Positions 34,543 to 50,064 of a stretch of DNA of 64,000 nucleotides are shown here, one piece after another. Origin of the DNA: Thermotomaculum hydrothermale (GTDB taxonomy: Bacteria; Acidobacteriota; Holophagae; Thermotomaculales; Thermotomaculaceae); NCBI RefSeq assembly GCF_016592575.1, contig NZ_AP017470.1, forward strand, positions 744,001 to 808,000, in the 5' to 3' direction. Position 1 is the stretch's first letter. Each line of letters starts with the position of its first letter. A program made the translations under genes and the position numbers. The notes beneath the pieces are model-generated. The model saw only the letters and a program-made list of their open reading frames with translations, was not told the origin of the DNA and made no database searches.

Positions 34543-34746
34543 ATGATATTGCGGGATAAAAAACGGAAATTTTTTAGAAAAGATAAAGAAGTTTTTAAAA
34601 ATGAAGATGCTCAAACATACACCGAATACGCTATGCTTTTAGTTCTTATTATGGTGCCTATTTTCTGGATTTTGAAGGCATTTATATATGCGGTTAACTT
34701 TAATTTCAACATAATCAGTTTTTTTGTGCAATTGCCTTTTCCTTAA
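34543..34746 (+). CDS. Flp-type pilin-like protein (first copy)
   Basis: A 67-residue protein: a basic leader (about 28 residues), then a single hydrophobic helix that starts A|QTYTEYAMLLVLI. Glu at position 5 after the likely cut and the following Tyr are the Flp prepilin hallmark, though the residue before the cut is Ala rather than Gly. ATG 34543 follows GAGGG; a longer frame from 34474 would overlap the promoter. The tail after the helix is short and hydrophobic (F-F-V-Q-L-P-F-P), unlike the second pilin. It may be a minor pilin or a non-cleaved relative. Confidence 0.65.
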   Translation: MILRDKKRKFFRKDKEVFKNEDAQTYTEYAMLLVLIMVPIFWILKAFIYAVNFNFNIISFFVQLPFP

Positions 34747-34770
34747 TTGATAAATCTTTAGGAGGTGTTT

Positions 34771-35010
34771 ATGTTCAGGCTTTTGGGTTTAACAGAATTG
34801 GTTAAGGGGTTTGATTTAAAATCCCTTGCAAAAAGGTTTCACGAAGATGAAACAGGTCAGGGTATGACAGAGTACATTATCATTATTGTACTTGTGGCTA
34901 TTTTAGTGTTGTTTGTTGTAAAGGCTTTTGGTGGAAAAATTAAAGGGCTGTTCAAGAAATCAACCGAAACATTAGGCAGCGAAACAGAAGGCGCATTCCA
35001 GGGTTCATAA
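34771..35010 (+). CDS. Flp pilin (major subunit candidate)
   Basis: A 79-residue prepilin with a 29-residue leader ending in Gly, then QGMTEYIIIIVLVAILVLF, so Glu is residue 5 of the mature protein and Tyr residue 6, exactly as in class IVb Flp pilins. The mature part is one hydrophobic helix followed by a charged tail ending in a Gly/Ser stretch. A perfect AGGAGGTG site suggests high expression, fitting the major pilin. The prepilin peptidase gene follows 25 bases after the stop. Confidence 0.85.
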   Translation: MFRLLGLTELVKGFDLKSLAKRFHEDETGQGMTEYIIIIVLVAILVLFVVKAFGGKIKGLFKKSTETLGSETEGAFQGS

Positions 35011-35035: not shown

Positions 35036-35587
35036 ATGATTTTTTTTAGGGATATCCTTTTATATGTTGTTATAGCAGTTTGTGCTATTACCGATGTAAT
35101 GTACGGCAAAATTTTTAATAAAGTTACATATCCTGCCATATTGCTTGGATTGATTATTAACCTTTTTTTAGGAAAAGATAATTTTCAATCCTCAGTAATC
35201 GGGCTTCTTGTTGCTTTTATCCTTTTCCTTATTGTTTTTATGATCGGAGGATTGGGGGGAGGCGATGTAAAGTTAATGGCTGCTATAGGGGCAATAAAAG
35301 GATATCCCTTTGTTTTGTATGCAGCTTTCTATTCTGCCCTTGTTGGCGGATTAATGTCTATTGCAATAATGATATGGAAGGGTAAGTTTTTAAGGGGAAT
35401 GAGAAATATTTTTAGAGTAATTTTCTCTTATATCTTTTCTTTTATTTTTCCAGGCGTTAAACCGCTTTCTTTAAGCCCAGAGGAAAGTGAGAAAATCCCA
35501 TTTGGATTTGCTATCTGTTTAGGAACATTATGGGCTGTTTTAGAGTTTATGTTTAATGTGTCTATTTTTGATTATATAAAAATTTAG
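35036..35587 (+). CDS. Prepilin peptidase, CpaA/TadV family
   Basis: This 183-residue integral membrane aspartyl protease should cut and perhaps methylate the Flp prepilins. The two catalytic Asp lie in AITDVMYGKIFN near the N-terminus and in GGLGGGDVKLMAA (GxGD) near residue 77. It lacks the N-terminal methylation domain of PilD, as is usual for TadV/CpaA. Five or so helices fill the rest. It follows directly after its pilin substrates. Confidence 0.9.
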   Translation: MIFFRDILLYVVIAVCAITDVMYGKIFNKVTYPAILLGLIINLFLGKDNFQSSVIGLLVAFILFLIVFMIGGLGGGDVKLMAAIGAIKGYPFVLYAAFYSALVGGLMSIAIMIWKGKFLRGMRNIFRVIFSYIFSFIFPGVKPLSLSPEESEKIPFGFAICLGTLWAVLEFMFNVSIFDYIKI

Positions 35588-35595
35588 GAGTTTTT

Positions 35596-36753
35596 ATGCT
35601 AAACGGCAAGAAGGGTTCATCTATTGGAGAGTACATGATAGTTTTGCTTCTTGTTGCCGTTGTTGCAATTATTGGAACTTATGCATACCAGAAATTTTTT
35701 GTAAAAAAATCATTTGATACTGCAATTGAATCGCTTGAGACAGGAGATGATGTATCAAGTGAATTAATGGAAGAAAACACTTCAAAGATTGATAAAGTTA
35801 AGTTAGCCGCTCCTGTATTTCTTGCAATTTTTACTTTTCTAATATTTCTAATGATAATTTTTTCTACAATTAGTGCCGCAAAAAAATCCAAAAGAAAACT
35901 AAAAGACTTGGGGGATGATGAAGACGGGCAGGCTTTAACTGAATTTATTTTAATTTTTCCTCTCCAGTTGTTTATTACTCTTTGCATAATGCAATTAAGC
36001 CTTATTTATACTGCAAGATTAGTGGTAAATTACGCAGCATTTAACGCTGCAAGGGCAGCTATAGTGGTTATACCGCAAAGTATGGAAGATGAGATTGCTG
36101 GACATATTAACCTTCCTTCAAATGAAGAAAATAACGAAAACGAAAGTTCTGGAAATAATTCGGATGATACCAAAAAGCAAAAATATAAATTAATTAAAAA
36201 AGCAGCAGCATTGTCATTAATGCCTATTTGCCATGGTTCAAAAGCATTTTTAAAGGATTTCAAAATTACGCTTTTTGGAGGAACAACAGTAAGTGGGATG
36301 GATATTGTTGAAACATTACAAATTGATGAGATAATAACGCTTTTAGGAAAATTTATAGGCTTTATAGGGGATGTTTTTGGAGTTAATGACCTTGACAAGT
36401 ACACTGAGGCTGTAAGTTACAGGTTTATGTATGCCTCATTGTTTACTGATATAAATATACTTGATGAAAATCTGGATCAAATTTATGACGAAAAAGAATA
36501 TTCAAGAAGTGATTTAGTTGTGGTTAAGGTTAAGTTTCCATATTATCTTGTAATTCCAATTGCAAATAAATTTATGGGGAAAAAATTCAATAAAGAGTTG
36601 TTTGATGATTTAGGATTAAGTAGTTCAACCCAGGAGTATCTTGGATACCTTGATAATCAATATTTTTCAGTTTTAAAGATAGATTGCAGCGGTTATGTTT
36701 ATCCAATAACCGCTGAGTGTGCAATGCATGTTGAAATGAAAGCAAAGCATTGA
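35596..36753 (+). CDS. Double-module pilin-like and TadE-like protein
   Basis: The 385-residue protein holds two prepilin-like segments. At the N-terminus, KKG|SSIGEYMIVLLLVAVV has Gly before and Glu5-Tyr after a class IVb cut site. A second helix (about 76-97) leads to an acidic linker and then a TadE domain opening G|QALTEFILIFPLQLF with Glu5 again, followed by the family's N-A-A-R-A-A segment. The rest (about 160-385) is probably extracytoplasmic, with a Glu/Asn-rich linker. TadE proteins are minor pseudopilins. Joining a pilin head to TadE in one chain is unusual. The start lies 8 bases after the peptidase stop. Confidence 0.72.
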   Translation: MLNGKKGSSIGEYMIVLLLVAVVAIIGTYAYQKFFVKKSFDTAIESLETGDDVSSELMEENTSKIDKVKLAAPVFLAIFTFLIFLMIIFSTISAAKKSKRKLKDLGDDEDGQALTEFILIFPLQLFITLCIMQLSLIYTARLVVNYAAFNAARAAIVVIPQSMEDEIAGHINLPSNEENNENESSGNNSDDTKKQKYKLIKKAAALSLMPICHGSKAFLKDFKITLFGGTTVSGMDIVETLQIDEIITLLGKFIGFIGDVFGVNDLDKYTEAVSYRFMYASLFTDINILDENLDQIYDEKEYSRSDLVVVKVKFPYYLVIPIANKFMGKKFNKELFDDLGLSSSTQEYLGYLDNQYFSVLKIDCSGYVYPITAECAMHVEMKAKH

Positions 36754-36760
36754 GGTTAGT

Positions 36761-38700
36761 ATGATTGCTAAATTAAGAGGATTACACAAAAACGAAAGCG
36801 GCCAATCAATTGTTTTTTCAGCAATTACTTTTCTGTTTTTAGCAATGTTTGTTTTTATGGTTTTAAATGTAGGAGATGTTACAAGTAAAAAGATGAGGCT
36901 TACCAACAATGCAGACGCTATTGCCGTCTCCGGTGCAACCTGGATGTGCAGGGGCTATAACCTTACGGCGATGTTAAATATAACTCAAACTCAGGTTCTT
37001 GCAATAATAATGCTTATGAAATCTTTTAAAAGAGCCAATAAAATTGCGAAAGCATTGTTACAGGCACAAAAAGCAGTTGCTGAAATTTTAAAGGACATAC
37101 CGTATACTGCTGCAATTGGAGCTGTACTATACGCAATAACTGTTCCACAGCAATACCTTATTAAATACGTTGGGGAAAAGGTTTATGAGCAGGTTCTTGC
37201 TGATAATTTAGAAGATAATGGTAATGGTGTCTTATGGGATATTGAGGATTTTCTTGTAGATGCTGAAGAGATTGAAGTAAAGGTTATTCCAGTGATTGCT
37301 CAGGTGGAAGCTGTTAAAACAGGGCTTGCTAATGGTGCCACGATAGGTTTTTTGTATCCTTTAATACCTGATGTAGATTTAAAATTGCCATTTATTGATG
37401 ACGATGACAGGAAATTTGAGTCATTGTGTAAGCCTGTTGCACATCATTTTAATGCTATTTCAAGGGCTGTTGACACTAAAATTGCGAAAATTGGGGAAAT
37501 CGGGATGGAAGGGCAAAAAAATATAGAACATATGCCAACCACAAGTTTTTTAGCTTCAGATAAAGTATCGGATATTCTGGGTTCTATTATGGATATTTTA
37601 ACTTTTGGTGACTTTGGCCCTGCACCTTTAGAATACTTTAAAGCTTATCTGTTTTATCCGTTATTAAGGGCTGTACCTCCATTTATAGGAGCTGTTTACG
37701 ATGGGGTGGTAAGAGCAACATATGAATCAATGTGTGAGGGGAAACCTGGTAAATACAGCTATAAAAAAACTACCTCTAATTGCAATGAAATTAAAAACAA
37801 TGCAGATAAATTGACAAAACTCACCTATATAAAAAATGGTGGGATAACAATTAGGTCGGGGGTTGATTCGTTAGATGAAATTCTTACAAAAGAATCCTGT
37901 AATTGTGGAGACCCTGCTCCCTGTAGGGTATTATCAACATATAAAGATATTAATGGCAATGATACTCAGGATTGTGGTTATTTTGCAGGTAAAGTATCTG
38001 GCAAGGATGCATGGCTGGAAAACGAAGCAACTTCTGCTACTTTAGAGGGAGATGATGCTAAATTTTTCTTTAAAAATATTATGGGGAAAAAATGTGACAA
38101 AAAGAAAAAAGTAAGGTTTGGGTTAATCCTGAAACCTATGGTTTCACTGTAGAAAATGAACCTATGTTAGGGAGCAATGTTAGGGCATACAAAATTATAG
38201 AAATTAAAATTGTTTCTGCTGAATATGAAACGACTGAGGAGATTTCTCCTGAAGAATCATGGGGTAATAGAGGAGGAAGTGGGGGTAGTGGAGGAGATAG
38301 CGATAAACCAAAGCCTTATCTATTGAAACGAGACAAAGAAAATGGGAAAGAGTACTGGGAAAATCACAAAGATTACGTTGGTATAGCCTATGTTTTACCT
38401 CAAAAGAACATTGTAAATATTAAAGCTGGTTTGAAAAATCCAAATCCAGTTGGAATGGTTTACTTTTCTCAGGCAGAAATTTATGTTCCAGATGGGGTAG
38501 AACCTCATTTATTTAATCAGTGCTGGCAGGTAAGGCTTGTAAGATTTACCAAATTAAGTGAATTAGCTAAAAAACTTGATTCTTCTGGTGTTAATCAGGC
38601 TCTTTCATTAGGTGGAGGGAAATCAGGCAGCACAAATAAGTTTATGAAACTCTTTAATGCGATAAAGGAGATGTTTAGTGGTGACATATTCATTCACTGA
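36761..38700 (+). pseudogene. TadG-like pilus assembly protein, frameshifted
   Basis: The first frame (36761-38152) opens with a TadE/G-type segment, SGQSIVFSAITFLFLAMF, then a long, partly hydrophobic region with a Cys-rich part (about residues 325-410: N-C-N-E, S-C-N-C-G, P-C-R). It stops soon after a Lys-rich tract. The next frame carries on with KVWVNPETYGFTVENEP and runs to 38700, including a Gly/Ser linker; its first ATG (38164) has no ribosome site. Adding one A in the tract at 38099-38110 joins the two into about 646 residues. So this is probably one gene with a one-base loss, or a site of -1 slippage. TadG-like proteins act in Flp pilus assembly at the envelope. Confidence 0.68.
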
Positions 38701-39241
38701 TGAAAAAGGTCAGTCTATGACTGAATTTGTAATGGTAATACCAGTGTATCTAATTATGATATTCGGGGTAATCTTTTTTGTTAAAGCCTTTTTTATAAAA
38801 CAACAAACCATTTCAGCAGCTCGATATGTAACAATTGCAAAAGGAGAATTTAAAGAAAAAGATGAAGATATTAAGGAAAACCTTGGAAAGATTTTTTTCA
38901 ATAGAGTTGATAAAGATAAAGTTACATTTGAGAAGGTAAATAGCTCAGAGGCTCTTGATACTGTTTTTAGTGGACATGGGGGAGACACTAACGAGGTTTT
39001 AGGATTTTTCTTGAAGGTATTGGACAAGATAAGTAGTACAAAAGGGTATAAAGTTTCATATGAAATAGAGGTGAAAGGCAAATTTACTCAAAAAATTATT
39101 GGAAATAAGAAGAAAGTTACAATAAGCACAACCTATTATATAGACAAAAATACGTGGAGTCACAAAGATGTTGGGAGTTTTCTTAATTTTCTATGGGATT
39201 TAATAAAAGAACTTGGTGGCGCAATAGGAGATTTATTTTAA
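38678..39241 (+). CDS. TadE-like minor pseudopilin
   Basis: A 187-residue protein whose N-terminus reads E-K-G|QSMTEFVMVIPVYLIMIF: Gly before the cut, Glu5 and Phe6 after it, then a single membrane helix. The remainder (about 40-187) is a small extracytoplasmic domain. GTG 38678 is 7 bases after AAAGGAG and lies inside the end of the TadG-like gene (23-base overlap), so translation is coupled. TadE-type pseudopilins are processed by the same peptidase and needed to assemble Flp pili. Confidence 0.8.
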   Translation: MVTYSFTDEKGQSMTEFVMVIPVYLIMIFGVIFFVKAFFIKQQTISAARYVTIAKGEFKEKDEDIKENLGKIFFNRVDKDKVTFEKVNSSEALDTVFSGHGGDTNEVLGFFLKVLDKISSTKGYKVSYEIEVKGKFTQKIIGNKKKVTISTTYYIDKNTWSHKDVGSFLNFLWDLIKELGGAIGDLF

Positions 39242-40174
39242 ATGGTTAAACTATTAAGGTTAATTCTTATTATTACAATCGGAATTGGGCTTTTATGGGT
39301 AGGCAATAGATTTCATGTAACTGTACAGGATAGTAAAGCCGATGTTTTTGATTTTTTTTACGGAGGAACAAAATCTATCCCAGATTTTATGGAAGGAGCA
39401 AATTATTCTCCAAAAGGCAAGACAATTGCTAATGGAGTGCCTTTTACTTACTCAGTTGAGGTAGTGAATGCCTCAATAGATGATGTTATAGATTACTATA
39501 AAAATCTTTATAATCCACACTTTTTAAGAATGTTTACTGATGAACAACTTGAAAGGGCAGGTGTTCAGCAGGGGGATGACGCTTTCAAAGCAATCAGGTT
39601 TTATGAAACAATTTTTGCTAAACTTGCCCCTCCTGTACTTGAATTTAAGGGAGAAACAATGGGAATGCTTGGAATACTTGATATGGGAGACAACACAAAG
39701 CTTTTTATAGATAAAAAAGCAGGCGAAAAAATAGTTCCTAAAGTAGTAATGGCTTTTAAAGAAAATCCAGAGTCTGAAAAAACAGTAGTTGTAAAGTACT
39801 GGACTGATAAAGTTTTCAGTTTTAAAAACTTTGTCCCAGAGGGAAATGAAGATTTACCTGGGTTTGACCTTGATGATGTTGACAGGCATCCTTATTCGCA
39901 AAGACTTCTTTCTATTGCCCAAAAAGATAATTATGCAAGCAGCAAGCTTGTTGCATACAGGGTTGATGACAATATTGACTCAGTAATAATTTATTACCTG
40001 TCTGATTTAAGGGGAAATGAATGGGAAATTCCTGAAACTGTTGTTAAAGCCCTTGATAAAGCAAAAGAAAAAAGGTTTATATACGCAAGGAAGGGAAATA
40101 AAAGTCTATATATTACTTTTTGCGTTGATAGGTTAAATTACACAAGCGTTGTAATGGTTGAAAAATACGAATAA
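39242..40174 (+). CDS. Membrane-anchored protein of unknown function in the Tad locus
   Basis: A 310-residue protein with one N-terminal helix (about 5-22) that anchors an otherwise soluble, probably periplasmic domain. I do not recognise a family. The start directly follows the TadE stop (TAAATG), so it belongs to the same operon. A repeated theme (V-E-V-V-N-A-S-I-D-D-V-I-D-Y-Y and Y-R-V-D-D-N-I-D-S-V-I-I-Y-Y) suggests two related subdomains. A role in pilus assembly is inferred from position only. Confidence 0.5.
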   Translation: MVKLLRLILIITIGIGLLWVGNRFHVTVQDSKADVFDFFYGGTKSIPDFMEGANYSPKGKTIANGVPFTYSVEVVNASIDDVIDYYKNLYNPHFLRMFTDEQLERAGVQQGDDAFKAIRFYETIFAKLAPPVLEFKGETMGMLGILDMGDNTKLFIDKKAGEKIVPKVVMAFKENPESEKTVVVKYWTDKVFSFKNFVPEGNEDLPGFDLDDVDRHPYSQRLLSIAQKDNYASSKLVAYRVDDNIDSVIIYYLSDLRGNEWEIPETVVKALDKAKEKRFIYARKGNKSLYITFCVDRLNYTSVVMVEKYE

Positions 40175-41007: not shown

Positions 41008-42225
41008 ATGAAAAGAAAAATTTTTCTAATATTTGCACTGTTTCTTTTGTGCTTTAGTTTAATGGCGCAGGAATTCACTCTTGTAATGGGTAAACAGAAG
41101 GTAATTCCTGCAGAGGGAGTGAAATCAGTTTCATCAGGAAATCCGAGGATTGTGAGAATTGTTATTCCCAAAGACCAGTCAAAGATTATTTTAAAGGCTG
41201 TTGGGGCAGGCACAACAACAGTTACATTAATTAAACAGGATGGAAGTACAGAGGAATTAACAGTAAATGTAATTGCACATGACCCTCAAAAGATTAAAAG
41301 AGAAGTTGAGCAGCTTCTTGCAGGAGTGGAAGGAATTGAAATTAAAACGGTTGGAGACAAGGTAATAATTGACGGTGAAATACTAACAGAAAAGGATAAT
41401 AAGAGAATTGACAAAGTAATGAAGCTGTATGGAGACCAGGTTGTCAAATTTGCAGAGTTTAACAGGGCATATTTACCTAAAGAAGACAATATAATGGTTG
41501 AATTTAATTTTTGTGAAGTAAATACAAACAAAATGGGGAATTACGGGATTAACTGGAATCAGGCGATTAAGCCACTATCTGTTGAATATGCTAAAAACTT
41601 TGGAACAGGGGATGTGGTAAAAAGCACCATTGGTATTGTTTCAAACTTTGGCCAGGCATTAAATATTATGGTAGGGAATGGAGATGCAAAGGTTTATGAC
41701 ACACACAGGGTTATTACTGTATCAGGGCAGCCGGCTGAATACTTTGTAGGTGGTGAATTTGGAACGAGAAATATTACCCAGGATACAAGTTCTGTTGTGT
41801 GGAAAAAGTACGGCACCCAATTTAAAGTAACTCCCGAGATTGATTCATTAAATAATATGAGGATTAAAATTGATTCTGAAATTTCCGAATTAAGCGGCAC
41901 AATGGTTGACGGTATCCCCGCTTTAAATACAAGAAAAATAAATACTGTTGTCAGGATAAAAGAGGGACAAACCATTGCATTAGGTGGTTTTATTAAAAGG
42001 ATCAAGAGTCAGGATATTCAAAAAGTACCTGGTCTTGGAAGCATTCCCGTCTTAGGTGCTCTTTTCAGGTCAAAACAATACCAGAACGGGGTGACAGATG
42101 GCGTTATCTTTATTACCGCAAAAAGAATATCTGCTGAAGATCAGGATATGAAGCAGATGATAGATAAGCCTATTAAAGAGTTTCACAAAGAAAAGAAAAA
42201 GTGGTGGCAGAGGGATAAGAAATGA
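41008..42225 (+). CDS. cpaC: Tad secretin (CpaC/RcpA)
   Basis: A 405-residue outer-membrane channel protein through which the Flp pilus leaves the cell. It has a signal peptide (1-20), an N-terminal pilus-formation domain (about 22-90, G-N-P-R-I-V-R-I), a BON-like segment (about 95-145) and the secretin core ending in the signature VPGLGSIPVLGALFRS. Length suits the short Tad secretins. The stop overlaps the FHA-TadA start (ATGA). Confidence 0.93.
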   Translation: MKRKIFLIFALFLLCFSLMAQEFTLVMGKQKVIPAEGVKSVSSGNPRIVRIVIPKDQSKIILKAVGAGTTTVTLIKQDGSTEELTVNVIAHDPQKIKREVEQLLAGVEGIEIKTVGDKVIIDGEILTEKDNKRIDKVMKLYGDQVVKFAEFNRAYLPKEDNIMVEFNFCEVNTNKMGNYGINWNQAIKPLSVEYAKNFGTGDVVKSTIGIVSNFGQALNIMVGNGDAKVYDTHRVITVSGQPAEYFVGGEFGTRNITQDTSSVVWKKYGTQFKVTPEIDSLNNMRIKIDSEISELSGTMVDGIPALNTRKINTVVRIKEGQTIALGGFIKRIKSQDIQKVPGLGSIPVLGALFRSKQYQNGVTDGVIFITAKRISAEDQDMKQMIDKPIKEFHKEKKKWWQRDKK

Positions 42226-43901
42226 AACTAACCGTTGTTTTTAAAGACGGTTCAAAAAAAGAGTTTGAAAATTTACCTGAAAAATTCATTATTGGAAGAG
42301 AACCACCTGCCCATGTGGTTCTACCTTCCCCTGTTGTTTCAAGGAAGCATTGTACTGTTGAAATTGAAAATGGTAAAGTTTTTGTGACTGACACAAGTTC
42401 AAATGGGATTTTTATAGGTCAGAATAGGCTGGAAAGAGGCAAAAAAATTGAGCTTCCTTTAAATAATCCTGTAATTATTGGTGAATTTGGATTGATTTTT
42501 ACCACTGATGAAGAAAAAGGCGGGACTCAACAAAAACTTTCTGAGCCTGAAATTAAGAAACAACGGGTTGAGGTAAAGTCTCACCATAAAAAAGAACCAA
42601 AAGCAGGGAAAAAGTTAACTCCTGAGCAGTTAGATGCTTTATCTGGTATTAGGGATAAAATCCATAAAAGATTGCTGGAGTTGTTAGATTTAAGGTGGGT
42701 TGATTTTACCTCTAAGCCTGACGAAGAATTAAAAAACCTTGTAAACAAAAAACTTGATTTAATTTTAGATCAGATGAGAGGGGACATCCCGGCATGGGTT
42801 GACCTTACAACTTTGAAAAAAGAAATGTTAGACGAGGTTGTGGGGTTAGGGCCTTTAGAAGATTTTTTGAGAGATGACGATGTTAGCGAGATAATGGTAA
42901 TTCACAAAGATTTAATTTATGTTGAAAAAAAGGGTAAAATAGTTGAAACTGACAAAAGGTTTTCTTCAGATGCTGCTTTAATGGCAATTATTGAAAGGAT
43001 TGTTGCCCCAATTGGAAAGAGAATTGACGAATCCCAACCCCTTGTTGATGCAAGGTTAAAGGATGGTTCAAGGGTTAATGCAATCATACCTCCGCTTGCT
43101 TTAAAAGGACCCTGTCTTACAATTAGAAAGTTTGGGAAGAAAAACCTAACTATTGAAGACCTGGTTAGATTTGGGACATTGAATAAACCTATGGCAACTT
43201 TCCTTGAACTTTGTGTAAAGGGAAGAAAAAATATCATTATCTCCGGTGGAACAGGTTCAGGTAAAACAACCTTATTGAATGTTTTATCTTCTTTTATTCC
43301 ACCAAATGAGAGGATTGTAACAATTGAGGATGCTGCTGAGTTGAGGCTTCCTCAGAAACATGTTGTTTCTCTTGAATCAAAACCGCCCAATGTTGAGGGA
43401 AAAGGAGAAATCACCATAAGAGACTTAGTTAAAAATGCTTTGAGAATGAGGCCTGACAGAATAATTGTTGGAGAATGCAGAGGAGGGGAAGCACTTGATA
43501 TGCTTCAGGCAATGAATACAGGGCATGCAGGCTCAATGACAACAGGCCACGCAAACTCTCCTGACGATATATTGAGAAGACTTGAGACAATGGTTTTAAT
43601 GTCAGGAATGGAATTGCCAATAAGGGCAATAAGAGACCAGATTGCTTCCGCAATTGATATTATTGTCCAGCAACAGAGGCTGTCTGACGGTTCAAGAAAA
43701 ATTACGAGCATTACAGAGGTTTTAGGGGTTGATGATGATTACAACATTGTTACTGAAGAGGTATTTAGATTTGAACAGGCAGGTATAGACAGCGAAGGCA
43801 AGGTGATAGGAAAGCATACAGCAACCGGCTATTTACCTTCCTTCCTTGCAGATTTCAAGGCAAGGGGCATACCAGTCCCGGAAGATTTATTCAGGGTGTG
43901 A
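42222..43901 (+). CDS. FHA-TadA fusion: pilus assembly ATPase (CpaF) with N-terminal FHA domain
   Basis: Residues 1-95 are an FHA domain (IIGREPPAHVVLPSPVVSRK, then S-S-N-G-I-F), with the Arg, Ser and Asn of the phosphothreonine pocket present. Residues about 130-559 are a CpaF/TadA secretion ATPase with Walker A GGTGSGKTT (342-350), the Asp-box region IVTIEDAAELRL, Walker B R-I-I-V-G-E-C-R-G-G-E and the His box MTTGHANSPDD. TadA powers pilus extension and retraction. The fused FHA domain could tie the motor to a threonine kinase. No TadZ gene was found between secretin and ATPase. Confidence 0.92.
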   Translation: MKLTVVFKDGSKKEFENLPEKFIIGREPPAHVVLPSPVVSRKHCTVEIENGKVFVTDTSSNGIFIGQNRLERGKKIELPLNNPVIIGEFGLIFTTDEEKGGTQQKLSEPEIKKQRVEVKSHHKKEPKAGKKLTPEQLDALSGIRDKIHKRLLELLDLRWVDFTSKPDEELKNLVNKKLDLILDQMRGDIPAWVDLTTLKKEMLDEVVGLGPLEDFLRDDDVSEIMVIHKDLIYVEKKGKIVETDKRFSSDAALMAIIERIVAPIGKRIDESQPLVDARLKDGSRVNAIIPPLALKGPCLTIRKFGKKNLTIEDLVRFGTLNKPMATFLELCVKGRKNIIISGGTGSGKTTLLNVLSSFIPPNERIVTIEDAAELRLPQKHVVSLESKPPNVEGKGEITIRDLVKNALRMRPDRIIVGECRGGEALDMLQAMNTGHAGSMTTGHANSPDDILRRLETMVLMSGMELPIRAIRDQIASAIDIIVQQQRLSDGSRKITSITEVLGVDDDYNIVTEEVFRFEQAGIDSEGKVIGKHTATGYLPSFLADFKARGIPVPEDLFRV

Positions 43902-44765: not shown

Positions 44766-44776
44766 GGCAGGTGGTT

Positions 44777-45700
44777 ATGAATCCGCAAATTTACTTTATT
44801 CTGGCAACAGTTTTTCTGTTTATTGCAATATTTTTGTTATTCTACTATTTTTTGCCTACTGAGGCAGAAGTTGAGGAGTTTAGAAAACAATTACCTACCG
44901 GACATCTTGAAAATAAAAAAATGAGAACATTTGAGGAAAGTCCAGTAATGAAAGCCCTTTATCCAGTAATTATTGCGTTTGCTGCCAGGGCTAAAAAGAT
45001 GAATATCCCTCAAAAGTATATTGATTTACTTGAAAGAAGGATTGCGGCAGCCGGTTATCCCTATGGCTTTACTTCTTATGAATACATAGGCTATGCAACG
45101 ACAATAGGGTTTATTGTGACTGTTTTAGCTGCATTTTTTACCTATTCAATGTTTGGTAGCATAAATTTTATTTTTTTAATTATTGCCTTTGTTTTTGGCA
45201 ATGTTTTCCCTTACTTTTTCCTTGCCAATCAAGCTGACGAGAGAAAAATAAAAATTTATAAAGATATTCCATATAAGTTAGATTTACTTTCAATGGCTGT
45301 AGAGGCTGGGCTTGATTTTCTCTCTGCGGTTAAAAGAATGGTGGAAAAGGATTCAACAAAAAGTCCTTTGGTTGAGGAGTTTTTCCAGTTTTTACAGGAA
45401 GTTAGAATGGGAAAAACTAAACAGGAAGCATTGCTGGATTTGGCAAAAAGGGCTGATGTTGAAGCATTAAACAGCATTGTTACAGCTATAATACAGGCGG
45501 AAAAAATGGGGACTCCTGTTGCTCAAGTTTTAAGAATTCAGGCAGAAAGTTTGAGAATTTCAAGAAGCCAGAAGGCTGAAAAAGCGGCTGGAGAGGCATC
45601 TGTAAAGATTATGTTTCCACTTGTCTTTATTCTTATTTCGACAGTTTTAATTCTTTTCGGTGGTATTATAGTTAAATGGGTGAGAGGAGAGTTATTCTAA
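44777..45700 (+). CDS. tadC: TadC inner-membrane platform protein
   Basis: The 307-residue product has helices near the N-terminus and at the C-terminus around an F-domain core (P-Y-K-L-D-L-L-S-M-A-V-E-A-G-L-D-F). ATG 44777 was chosen because AAGG lies 9 bases before it; the in-frame GTG at 44771 is too close to that site. The stop touches the next gene's TTG start, so the two are probably coupled. Confidence 0.9.
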   Translation: MNPQIYFILATVFLFIAIFLLFYYFLPTEAEVEEFRKQLPTGHLENKKMRTFEESPVMKALYPVIIAFAARAKKMNIPQKYIDLLERRIAAAGYPYGFTSYEYIGYATTIGFIVTVLAAFFTYSMFGSINFIFLIIAFVFGNVFPYFFLANQADERKIKIYKDIPYKLDLLSMAVEAGLDFLSAVKRMVEKDSTKSPLVEEFFQFLQEVRMGKTKQEALLDLAKRADVEALNSIVTAIIQAEKMGTPVAQVLRIQAESLRISRSQKAEKAAGEASVKIMFPLVFILISTVLILFGGIIVKWVRGELF

Positions 45701-46069
45701 TTGCCTGTTTCTTTTAATAGTTTGAATCTTAATTTAATTAAAAAAGTAAAACTGATTTATTCAGACAGTACTTACTCTATAAAAACTCTTATTGTCTGTA
45801 ATACCTTTTTTTCAAGGCTAAAGGGAATGCTTTTCTCAAAAGAGAACCATAAAAATGCCTATCTTATTATTCCATGCAATTCAATTCACACATTTTTTAT
45901 GGGTTATTCTATTGATGTTGTTTTTTTGAATAAATCAGGGGATATTGTTTCTCAATTCAATGTTGATCCGTTCAAAACAAAATCTGAAAAGGAGGCTTTT
46001 GCAGTTTTGGAAGGGACAAGATTATTAAAATCTAACAATAATATTGTCCAGGTTGTATTTTTGTGTTAA
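45701..46069 (+). CDS. DUF192 protein
   Basis: A 122-residue protein matching DUF192: CNTFFSRLKGMLF near residue 33, then I-I-P-C-N-S-I-H-T-F-F-M-G-Y-S-I-D-V-V-F-L. Function of the family is unknown. It begins with TTG directly after the tadC stop, with GAGGAGA about 11 bases upstream, and has no signal peptide. It lies between the pilus platform genes and two FHA genes, so it is in the same transcription unit; whether it serves the pilus is not known. Confidence 0.72.
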   Translation: MPVSFNSLNLNLIKKVKLIYSDSTYSIKTLIVCNTFFSRLKGMLFSKENHKNAYLIIPCNSIHTFFMGYSIDVVFLNKSGDIVSQFNVDPFKTKSEKEAFAVLEGTRLLKSNNNIVQVVFLC

Positions 46070-46103: not shown

Positions 46104-47039
46104 ATGGAAATTAAATTAAGTGTTTATTATGGCGATATTAAAAAAGCTTCTTTGAATTTTTCAAAGAAGGAAATAACTGTTGGCAGGGCTTTGGACTGTG
46201 ATGTTATAATAAATGACCCATCTGTTTCCTCAAAACACTTTATTATTTTGAACGAAAAGAATAACCTGAAAGTTAAAGATTTAGGGAGTATAAACGGAAC
46301 CTTTGTGAATGGAGAACAGGTTATTGACGAAAAAGAAGTTTTTCCTGGTGATAAAATCACCTTTTGCGGATATACAATTGAGGTTAGTTTTGAAGGAGAA
46401 GGAAGAGTTGTAGATGGCAAAGAAGAGAAAGTAGGCAATAAGACAGTTGTTATTGAGAGAGAAGACTTTCTATCAGACTTGAAAAAAGCGGCAAAAAAGG
46501 AAGATAAAAAAAAGTGGATACTGGTAGGCTCTCTAATAGGTGTGTTTTTTATTCTATTGATTACACTTTTATTGCTCCCTTCATCAGAGAAAAAAACAAA
46601 AACCTCTCCAATTACAGTTGATGTGATTGACACCTATTTCCTTCAACTGGAAAAACACATTGATAAAACAATTGCAGACAAAAAATCTATTGAAAATGCA
46701 AAAAGGTTTTATGAATTAGGTCAGGAAAAATTAAAATTAAAAAATCTGAATAAAGAAGCATTATACAGCGCCCTTGTTTATTTCTTAAAAGCAAAAAAGA
46801 GTGTAGAGGGAATAAATCCTAAACCGCCTATATGGGATAAGATTATTCCTGCTATAAATTCTACAAAAACTGAATTAAAATTGACATTAAAGAAGTTGTT
46901 TAAAGATGCATGGTTGCTGGAATCTGATGGAAACAAAGAGGGTGCAAGAGATGTTTATCTTGCAATAATGCAGACAATTCCAGATGAGAGTTCACGAATT
47001 TATATTACTGCTTTAAGGAGGTATAACTTACTGAAATGA
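46104..47039 (+). CDS. FHA-domain membrane protein
   Basis: A 311-residue protein: FHA domain at about 5-95 (V-G-R, S-V-S-S-K-H-F and G-S-I-N-G-T-F are the pocket motifs), a charged linker, one membrane helix near 139-160 and an outer or periplasmic helical region. ATG 46104 follows AAAGGA and a typical spacer; the longer frame from 46044 overlaps the DUF192 gene and has no site. The FHA domain faces the cytoplasm and should bind phosphothreonine. The outer part looks TPR-like but is not clear. The last codons overlap the next FHA gene (ATGA). Confidence 0.78.
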   Translation: MEIKLSVYYGDIKKASLNFSKKEITVGRALDCDVIINDPSVSSKHFIILNEKNNLKVKDLGSINGTFVNGEQVIDEKEVFPGDKITFCGYTIEVSFEGEGRVVDGKEEKVGNKTVVIEREDFLSDLKKAAKKEDKKKWILVGSLIGVFFILLITLLLLPSSEKKTKTSPITVDVIDTYFLQLEKHIDKTIADKKSIENAKRFYELGQEKLKLKNLNKEALYSALVYFLKAKKSVEGINPKPPIWDKIIPAINSTKTELKLTLKKLFKDAWLLESDGNKEGARDVYLAIMQTIPDESSRIYITALRRYNLLK

Positions 47040-49063
47040 AGGTAATATTTAAACCTCTTTCAAAAGAGGTAGAGAATGCTTTTACTATTAATTGTAGAAA
47101 AAATCCCAGGTTAACCATAGGCAGGAAAGACACAAACGATATAGTTTTGCCCTTTAGAAATGTATCGTCGTTCCATGCAATAGTGGAATGTGTTGACGAA
47201 GTAATTTATGTGGAAGACTTAAACAGTACAAACGGGACATTTGTAAATGATAATAGGATTACCGGTCGAGTATCGGTAGCTGATAAAGACAGAGTAAGAT
47301 TTGCAACATATGAGTTTTTAATTGAAGTTGAGAAGGAAGAAGAAAAACAGTCTGTTGAGACAGATGAAGCTTCAAACGGTACAGTTTTAATGGATGCTTC
47401 AAAAGTTCAGGAAATTCAGGAAATTATTGAGGAAGAAAGCAAAGATGATAATAATGTTGCAAATAAAGAGAAAGGGACAGAGACTGTTCTCTACGGAGTC
47501 AAGGGGCTTGTGCAATATGGTAGGCTTGTGCTTCTTGATGAAAACAGAAATTTTTTAGAAGAGTTTGAATTAAAAGAGAGTGAAATTTCAATTGGCAGAG
47601 ATAGTATAAACAATATTTCAATTGACCATCCATCTATCTCAAGGGTACACTGTTTTATTAATAGAAAAGATGATTATTATGAAGTTGTTGACAACGATAG
47701 CACTAATGGAGTATTTATCAACGATAAAAAAGTAAAAAAGGCAATTTTAAAAAACGGAGATATTTTAAAATTAGGGGATAAAGAATTTGTTTTTATTGCC
47801 CCAGGAGAATTATTTTCTCCGTCTTTTCTAAAAGACAAAAAAGAAAAAAAATCTTTTAATTTTGATAGAAAGAAAGTGTATATAACAATTTTTGCAGTGT
47901 TTTTTGTGTTGATTGTTATCCTTGCTTTGCTTCCGTCTGGAGAAAAGAGGGTAAAAAGAAATACTAAAATATCAGTTAAAGAATTGAAGCTTGATGTAAT
48001 AAACTCTTTCAAGAACGAGGATTGGGACAATGTTGTTTATTTGATTGAAAATTTTAATTTAAAAGGTTTTGAAAATGAGTATAGTAAGGCTAAATTTGAG
48101 ATAGAAAATAGGAAAAAATATTTAAAACTTGTTGATTTGATAAGCGATAATAATTTTCAAGAAGCAGAAAAACTTTTGAGCACAATTGATGAAAAATCAG
48201 TTTATTATCAAAAAGGGCAATCATTGTTAACTGAAAAGAAGGGCGAATTTATTTCAAATAAACTTGAAGAGATTGATTCTCTTATTGACAGTGATAAAAT
48301 TGTTGAAGCATATAACAAAATTATAAAATTGAAAACAAAGTTCCCGGAAAATGAAAAGATTTCTCTTCTTGCACAGGAGTTAGAGAAAAAATATAAGACT
48401 TACCAGAAAAGAAAAAAAGCAAGACAAAAGTACTTTGCTTTGAGAAGAAAGGTAAATTCTCAAGCAAACTCTTTGGTTGAAAAAGCTAAGGAGCTTTATC
48501 TTAACGGTAATATTGTTGATTCAATCGCAAAGTTAATTGATGCAAGGCAGTTATACATTGCTAAAAACCTGACAGTACCTTCAAAAATCGATAGACTTAA
48601 AGAAAATTTGTCAAAGGTAAGAACCCTTTACTTAAAAGGAAAAAAACAGGTAATGCAGGGGAATACAGAAGCAGCTGCTAATAACTTTGAAAAATTGTTT
48701 GAAATCTCCAAAAAATATTTATGGGGTGAAGATGGAAAAATTGAAAATGAATGCAAAAAACTGCTAAAAGATTACTATGTAAGTAAGGCAAATTCATTTT
48801 ATAAAGTTAATAATTATACAAAGGCTCTGGATTATGCCAATAGAGTGCTTGATATTTCTCCGTCAGATAGGTCTATGCAGGCATTGAAAAGAGATATTTT
48901 AAGAAAGGCAAAAAGTCTTTACAATAAAGGTTATATAGAACAAACTCAATACAATAACTGCAAAGCAGCTTTATATTATTTCAGGCAGGTTGTAGAAATA
49001 CTGCCTTCTTCAGACCCGATTTATAAAAAAGCAATGAAGAGGATTAAAGAATGCGAAAAATAG
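47036..49063 (+). CDS. Protein with two FHA domains, a membrane helix and TPR-like repeats
   Basis: The 675-residue protein has a first FHA domain (about 15-95, T-I-G-R-K and N-S-T-N-G-T-F), an acidic linker, a second FHA domain (about 165-260, S-I-G-R-D and S-T-N-G-V-F), one membrane helix (about 282-300) and a long helical, Lys/Glu-rich region with TPR-like pairs to the end (about 320-675). Both FHA pockets keep the key residues. It overlaps the previous FHA gene by 4 bases and the next TPR gene by 13. It looks like a receptor that joins a phosphothreonine signal inside to protein contacts outside. Confidence 0.78.
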   Translation: MKVIFKPLSKEVENAFTINCRKNPRLTIGRKDTNDIVLPFRNVSSFHAIVECVDEVIYVEDLNSTNGTFVNDNRITGRVSVADKDRVRFATYEFLIEVEKEEEKQSVETDEASNGTVLMDASKVQEIQEIIEEESKDDNNVANKEKGTETVLYGVKGLVQYGRLVLLDENRNFLEEFELKESEISIGRDSINNISIDHPSISRVHCFINRKDDYYEVVDNDSTNGVFINDKKVKKAILKNGDILKLGDKEFVFIAPGELFSPSFLKDKKEKKSFNFDRKKVYITIFAVFFVLIVILALLPSGEKRVKRNTKISVKELKLDVINSFKNEDWDNVVYLIENFNLKGFENEYSKAKFEIENRKKYLKLVDLISDNNFQEAEKLLSTIDEKSVYYQKGQSLLTEKKGEFISNKLEEIDSLIDSDKIVEAYNKIIKLKTKFPENEKISLLAQELEKKYKTYQKRKKARQKYFALRRKVNSQANSLVEKAKELYLNGNIVDSIAKLIDARQLYIAKNLTVPSKIDRLKENLSKVRTLYLKGKKQVMQGNTEAAANNFEKLFEISKKYLWGEDGKIENECKKLLKDYYVSKANSFYKVNNYTKALDYANRVLDISPSDRSMQALKRDILRKAKSLYNKGYIEQTQYNNCKAALYYFRQVVEILPSSDPIYKKAMKRIKECEK

Positions 49064-50064
49064 TGGTTGCTTTTTGTCTTGTATTTACAATGAACATTTT
49101 TGCAGGCTTTAGTTTAAGTGACCTTGGAAGCGCTAAAAAGTATTTTAAAAAAGCGGAACAATTGTTTAATGCAGGTAATTATCAGCAGGCAATTCCTAAT
49201 TATTTAAAGTATTTATCAAAAAAGAAAAACCAGAAAGACGAAAAAGCTCTTTATCATATAAGTATTTGTTATATGGAAACAGGTAACCCTCAATCAGGTT
49301 TTTCTTTTATAAAACAACTTTATCAATTAAAAGGCACTGAGTTAAAATATGCAGTACTTTATGCAGAGTATCTTGTTCAATTAAATAAATTACAGGATGC
49401 TATTAATGTGTATAAGGGGGTAATTGCTATTTATCCTGACGATTATTTAAGTTATGTAAGGTTAGGAGAGTTGCTTGTTAATAACGGGCAATTAAAAGAA
49501 GCAAGAAAAATGTGGAATAAGGCAATAACATTAAAAGACAGGCCGACTGAAGCTTATGCTTTGCTTTCAGAAAGTTATCTAAATGTTGAGAAAAACAAAT
49601 TGCTTGCATATTACTATGCCAGAAAACTTTATGAAATAGCCCCTGATGAAAAAAAACCGGGAATTAAATCAATGTTAAACAGTATAGCAGGAGACTTTAA
49701 AGATGATTTTGAAAATTATTATTTATTAAGAACCTGTAAAGAAAAGGCTAAGTTAGAAGTTCAAAAAGGTGATTATTTATCAGCATTTTCGACTTTATCC
49801 AGGTGTGAAGATCTGGAAAATATTGACGAAGAATATCTTTTAATGTTTGCAGATATAGCAAAGAAGCTCAAAAAGTGGGACAAAGCGCTGGAGCTTTATA
49901 AAAAATGCCTTGCATTAGGTTTTGAAAGTGGACAAACTTATCTTGAACTTGCAAAGTGCTATTTAAAAACAGGGAATTTGGCACTTGCGAAGGTTAACTT
50001 AAAAATGGCAATGAACTATAAGGATACAAAGGAAGAGGCTTTAAAACTTTTAAATTCAATATAG
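49051..50064 (+). CDS. Exported TPR protein (TadD-like by position)
   Basis: A 337-residue protein with a signal peptide (1-18) and about eight TPR units (for example F-N-A-G-N-Y-Q-Q-A-I-P-N-Y and A-L-E-L-Y-K-K-C-L-A-L-G). It should be periplasmic or attached to the outer membrane. Tad loci usually include a TPR lipoprotein, TadD, but no lipobox Cys is visible here, so the match rests on location and TPR content. It overlaps the two-FHA gene by 13 bases and ends 9 bases before an HU-like gene. Confidence 0.68.
   Translation: MRKIVVAFCLVFTMNIFAGFSLSDLGSAKKYFKKAEQLFNAGNYQQAIPNYLKYLSKKKNQKDEKALYHISICYMETGNPQSGFSFIKQLYQLKGTELKYAVLYAEYLVQLNKLQDAINVYKGVIAIYPDDYLSYVRLGELLVNNGQLKEARKMWNKAITLKDRPTEAYALLSESYLNVEKNKLLAYYYARKLYEIAPDEKKPGIKSMLNSIAGDFKDDFENYYLLRTCKEKAKLEVQKGDYLSAFSTLSRCEDLENIDEEYLLMFADIAKKLKKWDKALELYKKCLALGFESGQTYLELAKCYLKTGNLALAKVNLKMAMNYKDTKEEALKLLNSI

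Follow-up and report, generated by a model that had tools for sequence, protein, structure and literature searches.

In some Tad pili, the motor TadA carries an N-terminal FHA domain in place of TadZ, a genomic pattern that is well supported: none of 55 loci with such a fusion has a tadZ gene, versus 85 of 92 loci with a plain TadA. In an ordinary Tad system, a ParA/MinD-type ATPase known as TadZ or CpaE, whose gene usually directly precedes tadA, is believed to encircle the TadA hexamer and position it at the inner membrane, while the typical ligand of an FHA module is a phosphorylated threonine (pThr). We started from a fusion encoded in 64,000 nucleotides of Thermotomaculum hydrothermale (hereafter the window; NZ_AP017470.1, positions 744,001-808,000 of the forward strand), an organism with a genome of 2.3 Mb. 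With moderate confidence, we favor the reading that this is a TadZ-less Tad motor, in which the FHA domain on TadA would take the role of TadZ by docking the hexamer to membrane partners, here via pThr.

The fusion is a single open frame (+ strand) from an ATG at 42222 to a stop at 43901, laid out as an FHA domain (residues 23-87), a linker, and an ATPase (residues 208-538).

42222..43901, + strand: FHA-TadA (CpaF) fusion of 559 aa, with Pfam FHA and T2SSE domains and a PDB match to CpaF
42288..42407, + strand: predicted pThr pocket of the FHA domain, G25-R26, S40-R41-K42-H43, and S59-S60-N61-G62, kept in 9/9 genomes of the family
43245..43274, + strand: Walker A motif of the motor, GGTGSGKTTL, read from the sequence

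Residues 23-87 match Pfam FHA (PF00498) with 56.8 bits, against a cut-off of 20.7, and this part has a PDB match to GarA. The ATPase part matches T2SSE (PF00437, residues 208-485, 211 bits), and its top PDB relatives are CpaF structures (E 2e-118). An AlphaFold2 model of residues 1-104 is all-beta with a mean pLDDT of 89.5, and its top Foldseek matches are the FHA domains of MDC1, GarA, and OdhI (E ~4e-7), which bears out the FHA fold. An earlier note on this DNA had proposed a complete FHA domain with its pThr-binding residues ahead of the TadA ATPase in one frame, and Pfam, the model with its Foldseek matches, and the residues of the pocket all bear this out. Since each of the nine genomes in the family of the window keeps the full-length protein, with 73-100% identity, an assembly artefact is excluded. 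The genome of the window also encodes a second FHA-TadA of 477 aa, an orphan without tad neighbors (L082:9241-10674, - strand, corresponding to G000:C1:2243240-2244673). Such orphans are found across the family, with ~55% identity to the tad-operon FHA-TadA over the ATPase and, in most genomes, a canonical pocket.

The fusion gene sits within a complete tad operon, running from the pilin genes at 34543-35010 to a TPR protein at 49051..50064.

34543..34746, + strand: small Flp-like pilin of 67 aa, short and hydrophobic with a TEY motif, judged by sequence only
34771..35010, + strand: small Flp-like pilin of 79 aa, with G-x-x-x-TEY ahead of a hydrophobic stretch, judged in the same way
35036..35587, + strand: prepilin peptidase (TadV/CpaA), Peptidase_A24
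35596..36753, + strand: TadE-like pseudopilin, TadE 29.5 bits
36761..38152, + strand: possible TadG/TadE-related protein, a weak assignment from its position and an NCBIfam tadE_like_DECH match under the cut-off, with no Pfam match
38678..39241, + strand: TadE-like pseudopilin, TadE 33.7 bits
40193..40996, + strand: RcpC/CpaB, RcpC 94.8 bits
41008..42225, + strand: secretin RcpA/CpaC, Secretin 124.7 bits
43905..44765, + strand: TadB platform protein, T2SSF
44771..45700, + strand: TadC platform protein, T2SSF
45701..46069, + strand: DUF192 protein, by Pfam, following tadC
46104..47039, + strand: protein with an FHA domain (65.4 bits), a linker, a transmembrane (TM) segment, and a C-terminal domain, conserved in the family
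47036..49063, + strand: protein with two FHA domains, a TM segment, and TPRs
49051..50064, + strand: TPR protein in a TadD-like position

The probable start of the FHA-TM protein is the ATG at 46104, and two further operon proteins (38164-38700 and 39242-40174) have no Pfam match. We dropped the DUF192 gene as a marker for FHA-type loci; it adjoins tad genes of all classes, including those of a plasmid locus in Moraxella bovis. Of the components of a Tad (type IVc) system, the operon encodes the TadA/CpaF ATPase, TadB and TadC, the secretin RcpA, RcpC/CpaB, a prepilin peptidase, TadE-like pseudopilins, and putative Flp pilins. The stop of the secretin gene and the start of the FHA-TadA gene share 4 bp, which leaves the usual place of tadZ unavailable. 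Because TadZ/CpaE, a usual component, is absent from both operon and genome, we filed the operon as a TadZ-less Tad variant and not as a canonical Tad system.

We searched for TadZ using HMMs built from the loci themselves, whose sensitivity was checked on proteobacterial plasmid loci. Pfam TadZ_N (PF16968) was discarded as a detector because it is uninformative, scoring over cut-off in 0/14 control genomes, Caulobacter included. In the nine family genomes, the profile search turned up no TadZ; the best scores there were 50-64 bits, versus 145-225 bits for clear TadZ matches. In the genome of the window, the matches to the TadZ model are Soj/ParA, Mrp, and ferredoxin-MinD types, the strongest being a Soj/ParA protein with 62.7 bits. 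That the usual TadZ gene had not been found in the window thus extends to the whole 2.3 Mb genome, and the profile found no tadZ elsewhere that might have undercut the idea of a replacement.

How general is this pattern? We annotated ~175 loci with the same kind of HMMs. FHA-TadA proteins occur in Myxococcota, Verrucomicrobiota, Lentisphaerota, Planctomycetota, and Pseudomonadota; most TadA proteins have no FHA domain, as the earlier note had said, although the fusion is widespread and already published. In a sample of genome contigs and phyla, a TadZ-like gene is present in 0/40 FHA-TadA loci versus 34/39 plain-TadA loci, and 25 further TadAs carry a fused TadZ-like domain. Within the window's own phylum, 18/20 plain loci have TadZ, and the same HMM detects it in 8/8 plain proteobacterial plasmid loci, including genes annotated merely as hypothetical. 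In one Burkholderiales family, where both types often share a genome, TadZ is found in 0/15 FHA-type loci (one of which, L227, is identical with locus L095, while L222 has its FHA part in a separate frame fragment) versus 25/25 plain loci. The short separate frame of L222 may reflect a frameshift or a real split. The Fisher values for the pooled counts (0/55 versus 85/92) are descriptive and not probabilities, because the loci are related. In 39 FHA-TadA loci, no TadZ-like match appeared even at E<=5. In nearly all FHA-TadA loci, the secretin stop lies within ~150 bp of the FHA-TadA start, often overlapping it, so the slot for tadZ is gone. These findings show that FHA fusion and TadZ are mutually exclusive 1) within a phylum, 2) within a Burkholderiales family, and 3) between loci that share one genome. 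Genomes with FHA-TadA need not lack tadZ altogether: several in Burkholderiales also hold TadZ at a plain locus. Genomes of Rugamonas and Telluria hold TadZ-scoring genes, and the one we examined (Rugamonas, G405) belongs to a separate, plain tad locus.

In a tree of 128 TadA cores, plain TadAs are set apart from a clade that unites FHA-TadA and TadZ-TadA (SH-aLRT 99). The rows nearest to the window protein are the FHA-TadAs of its own family, followed by one from Myxococcota and one from its own phylum (G221). The closest TadAs of that phylum outside the family carry a TadZ-like ATPase at the same N-terminal end. Such TadZ-TadA fusions, with a MinD/ParA-like N-terminal domain, occur in Acidobacteriota, Bdellovibrionota, Omnitrophota, and others (L057-L065, L098, L103, L113, L116, L121, L123, L134, L138, L141, L146, L153, L154, and other loci). 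A quick tree had suggested four changes between FHA and TadZ; we make no claim of repeated exchange, as a single FHA-TadA clade is not rejected by the AU test (p = 0.87). The safe reading is that TadZ and FHA were swapped at least once at the N-terminal end of TadA and that the arrangement has been stable since. Because the loci are related, the AU test keeps a single clade, and the tree holds only two supported independent contrasts, the association of FHA with TadZ absence may rest on one ancient event. The suggestion that FHA replaces TadZ is thus backed by the pooled counts, by fusions at the same position, and by a TadZ-free family, with the reservation that the exchange was perhaps a single one.

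The same tree bears on two other explanations. Fusion of FHA and loss of tadZ could have happened once, by chance, in one ancestor, so that common descent alone would account for the pattern and no function was exchanged. The single clade that the AU test does not reject and the only two starred contrasts fit this, but TadZ has not been regained in any of the 55 FHA-TadA loci, which span several phyla, even though several Burkholderiales genomes have it at hand in a plain locus, and the nearest relatives of the phylum outside the family carry TadZ on the very end of TadA where FHA is found. We consider this account unlikely. Alternatively, FHA might regulate the ATPase, or a switch between extension and retraction, as a phosphorylation-dependent brake, with TadZ lost for unrelated reasons. 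CpaF drives both assembly and disassembly of the pilus (PMC12019362), and a linker connects FHA to the motor. However, FHA and TadZ alternate at one N-terminal position in one TadA clade and exclude each other at each locus, which suggests a shared function over an unrelated loss and makes the brake quite improbable.

Is the FHA domain a reader of phosphothreonine? The canonical pocket of the window protein (R26/S40/H43/N61/G62), with the G-R, S-x-x-H, and N-G motifs predicted to bind pThr, is intact in the FHA-TadA of 9/9 family genomes, and the full pocket is present in 5/6 FHA-TadAs labeled as Myxococcota. In contrast, it is present in 0/27 proteobacterial FHA-TadAs, in which the R, S, and N residues are lost (R to K/S, S to G/A, and N to other residues) while the fold positions G25, H43, and G62 remain in most (L088-L089, L093-L095, L100, L102, L110, L112, and L221-L235). 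Judging from these residues, the FHA domain of the proteobacterial proteins probably does not read pThr. With 27/27 pockets degenerate, the architecture would not need phospho-binding to persist, and pThr control is not a general rule.

If pThr is read in the lineage of the window, a kinase would be expected to write it. The genome encodes seven Hanks kinases over the cut-off and 11 FHA domains, and neither the operon nor the rest of the 64-kb window contains a kinase. Elsewhere in the genome, FHA genes lie beside or near Hanks-type kinases at L085 (G000:C1:472185-473168) and L084 (G000:C1:514755-523933), and these kinases are candidates for the kinase of this Tad system. Across the survey, FHA genes in trans are found near 2/83 plain TadAs, 18/48 FHA-TadAs, and 12/21 TadZ-TadAs, and kinases near 1/83 plain TadAs versus 9/69 otherwise. 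The linkers of FHA proteins near tad loci contain 31 Thr-x-hydrophobic-hydrophobic motifs versus 8.0+-2.8 in shuffled sequences (22 versus 7.0+-2.5 outside the window's family), an enrichment that counts as a lead because the pattern was picked post hoc and the sequences are related. The same pattern with Ser is not enriched (10 versus 14.8), nor is it with Ala, Glu, or Asp. We rejected a pThr motif acting within the FHA-TadA molecule, as its own linker shows no enrichment (5 versus 5.0). Three sites in the operon stand out as candidate phosphoacceptors.

46434..46454, + strand: GNKTVVI, in the linker of the FHA-TM protein, with G, N, and T invariant in 7 genomes
47375..47395, + strand: NGTVLMD, in the protein with two FHA domains, a TM segment, and TPRs, with GTV..D invariant
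47477..47497, + strand: TETVLYG, in the same protein, with TVL.G.K invariant

GN.T, GTV..D, and TVL.G.K are the invariant spots within the family in linkers that are otherwise variable. An intact pocket, kinases in the genome, and conserved Thr motifs make Ser/Thr control, as proposed in the earlier note, possible in the lineage of the window, where pThr reading by FHA is plausible; as a general rule the proposal fails on the pThr residues lost in proteobacteria.

FHA domains can also bind without phosphate. The FHA domain might therefore be a phospho-independent adaptor on the motor, a structural substitute for TadZ, and the intact pocket of the window protein ancestral or incidental. This would explain how R, S, and N could be lost in 27/27 proteobacterial FHA-TadAs while the three fold positions stay in most. 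Nevertheless, the full pocket is kept in every family genome and in most Myxococcota, and conserved Thr motifs and kinases go with FHA-linked Tad loci. We regard such an adaptor as somewhat unlikely.

We return to the TadZ-less motor with a docking FHA domain. Such a motor would belong to a Tad (type IVc) lineage in which the N-terminal FHA fills the role of TadZ/CpaE, and we propose that the TadA hexamer would use its six FHA domains to dock to cytoplasmic partners located at the membrane. As partners, the two downstream FHA-containing TM proteins of the operon are the leading candidates. Docking would occur via phosphorylated threonines in GNKTVVI, NGTVLMD, and TETVLYG, with the phosphates added by a kinase whose gene lies in another part of the genome. 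Of the two halves of this reading, docking as a substitute for TadZ has the better backing, while the phospho-dependent half would apply to this and similar lineages. A broader proposal, which we put forward tentatively as a little short of an even bet, is that a Tad branch without a ParA/MinD-type ATPase uses FHA both to place and to switch its motor, that the lineage of the window reads pThr on the FHA membrane proteins of its operon, and that nucleotide-driven positioning has thereby given way to phosphoprotein docking. If true, the large and stable set of FHA-TadA loci without TadZ would mean that the localizing role of TadZ/CpaE is replaceable, and pilus placement would be tied to Ser/Thr kinase signaling in some lineages.

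How does this compare with known systems? TadZ/CpaE has been called ubiquitous in Tad systems, and six CpaE dimers have been modeled around CpaF in Caulobacter, moving between states (PMC13170226). The window system shares the motor core, platform, secretin, RcpC, and pilins with the canonical CpaE-CpaF/TadZ-TadA systems but has no separate TadZ/CpaE, carrying FHA on the motor instead (PMC13170226 and PMC11300603). Our literature search for Tad pili without TadZ returned no match, and a limited search found no description of a TadZ-TadA fusion. The latter fusions share with the window protein the TadA clade and the end at which the fusion occurs, often with FHA proteins in trans, and differ in having a MinD/ParA-like domain where the window protein has FHA. 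In the Kil system of Myxococcus xanthus, KilF is an FHA-TadA that is spread diffusely before prey is touched and gathers into clusters where contact is made (PMC8460266). Kil resembles the window system in its FHA fused to a TadA-type ATPase, the many FHA proteins of its clusters, and what is described as a single ATPase (PMC8460266), whereas its genes form two clusters and serve in prey killing and the window has one complete tad operon. Finally, the FHA-IDR-CpaF architecture has already been named class III CpaF, an example being E3HIW0 of Achromobacter xylosoxidans; the class is described mostly from betaproteobacteria, and the main text of that paper is silent on TadZ/CpaE (PMC12019362). 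The window protein fits this class, with an N-terminal FHA, a linker, and a CpaF core in one frame, and differs from its sampled proteobacterial members in having a canonical pThr pocket where theirs is degenerate. The fusion itself is thus not new; what is new is that it goes along with a missing TadZ, both in several phyla and inside single genomes.
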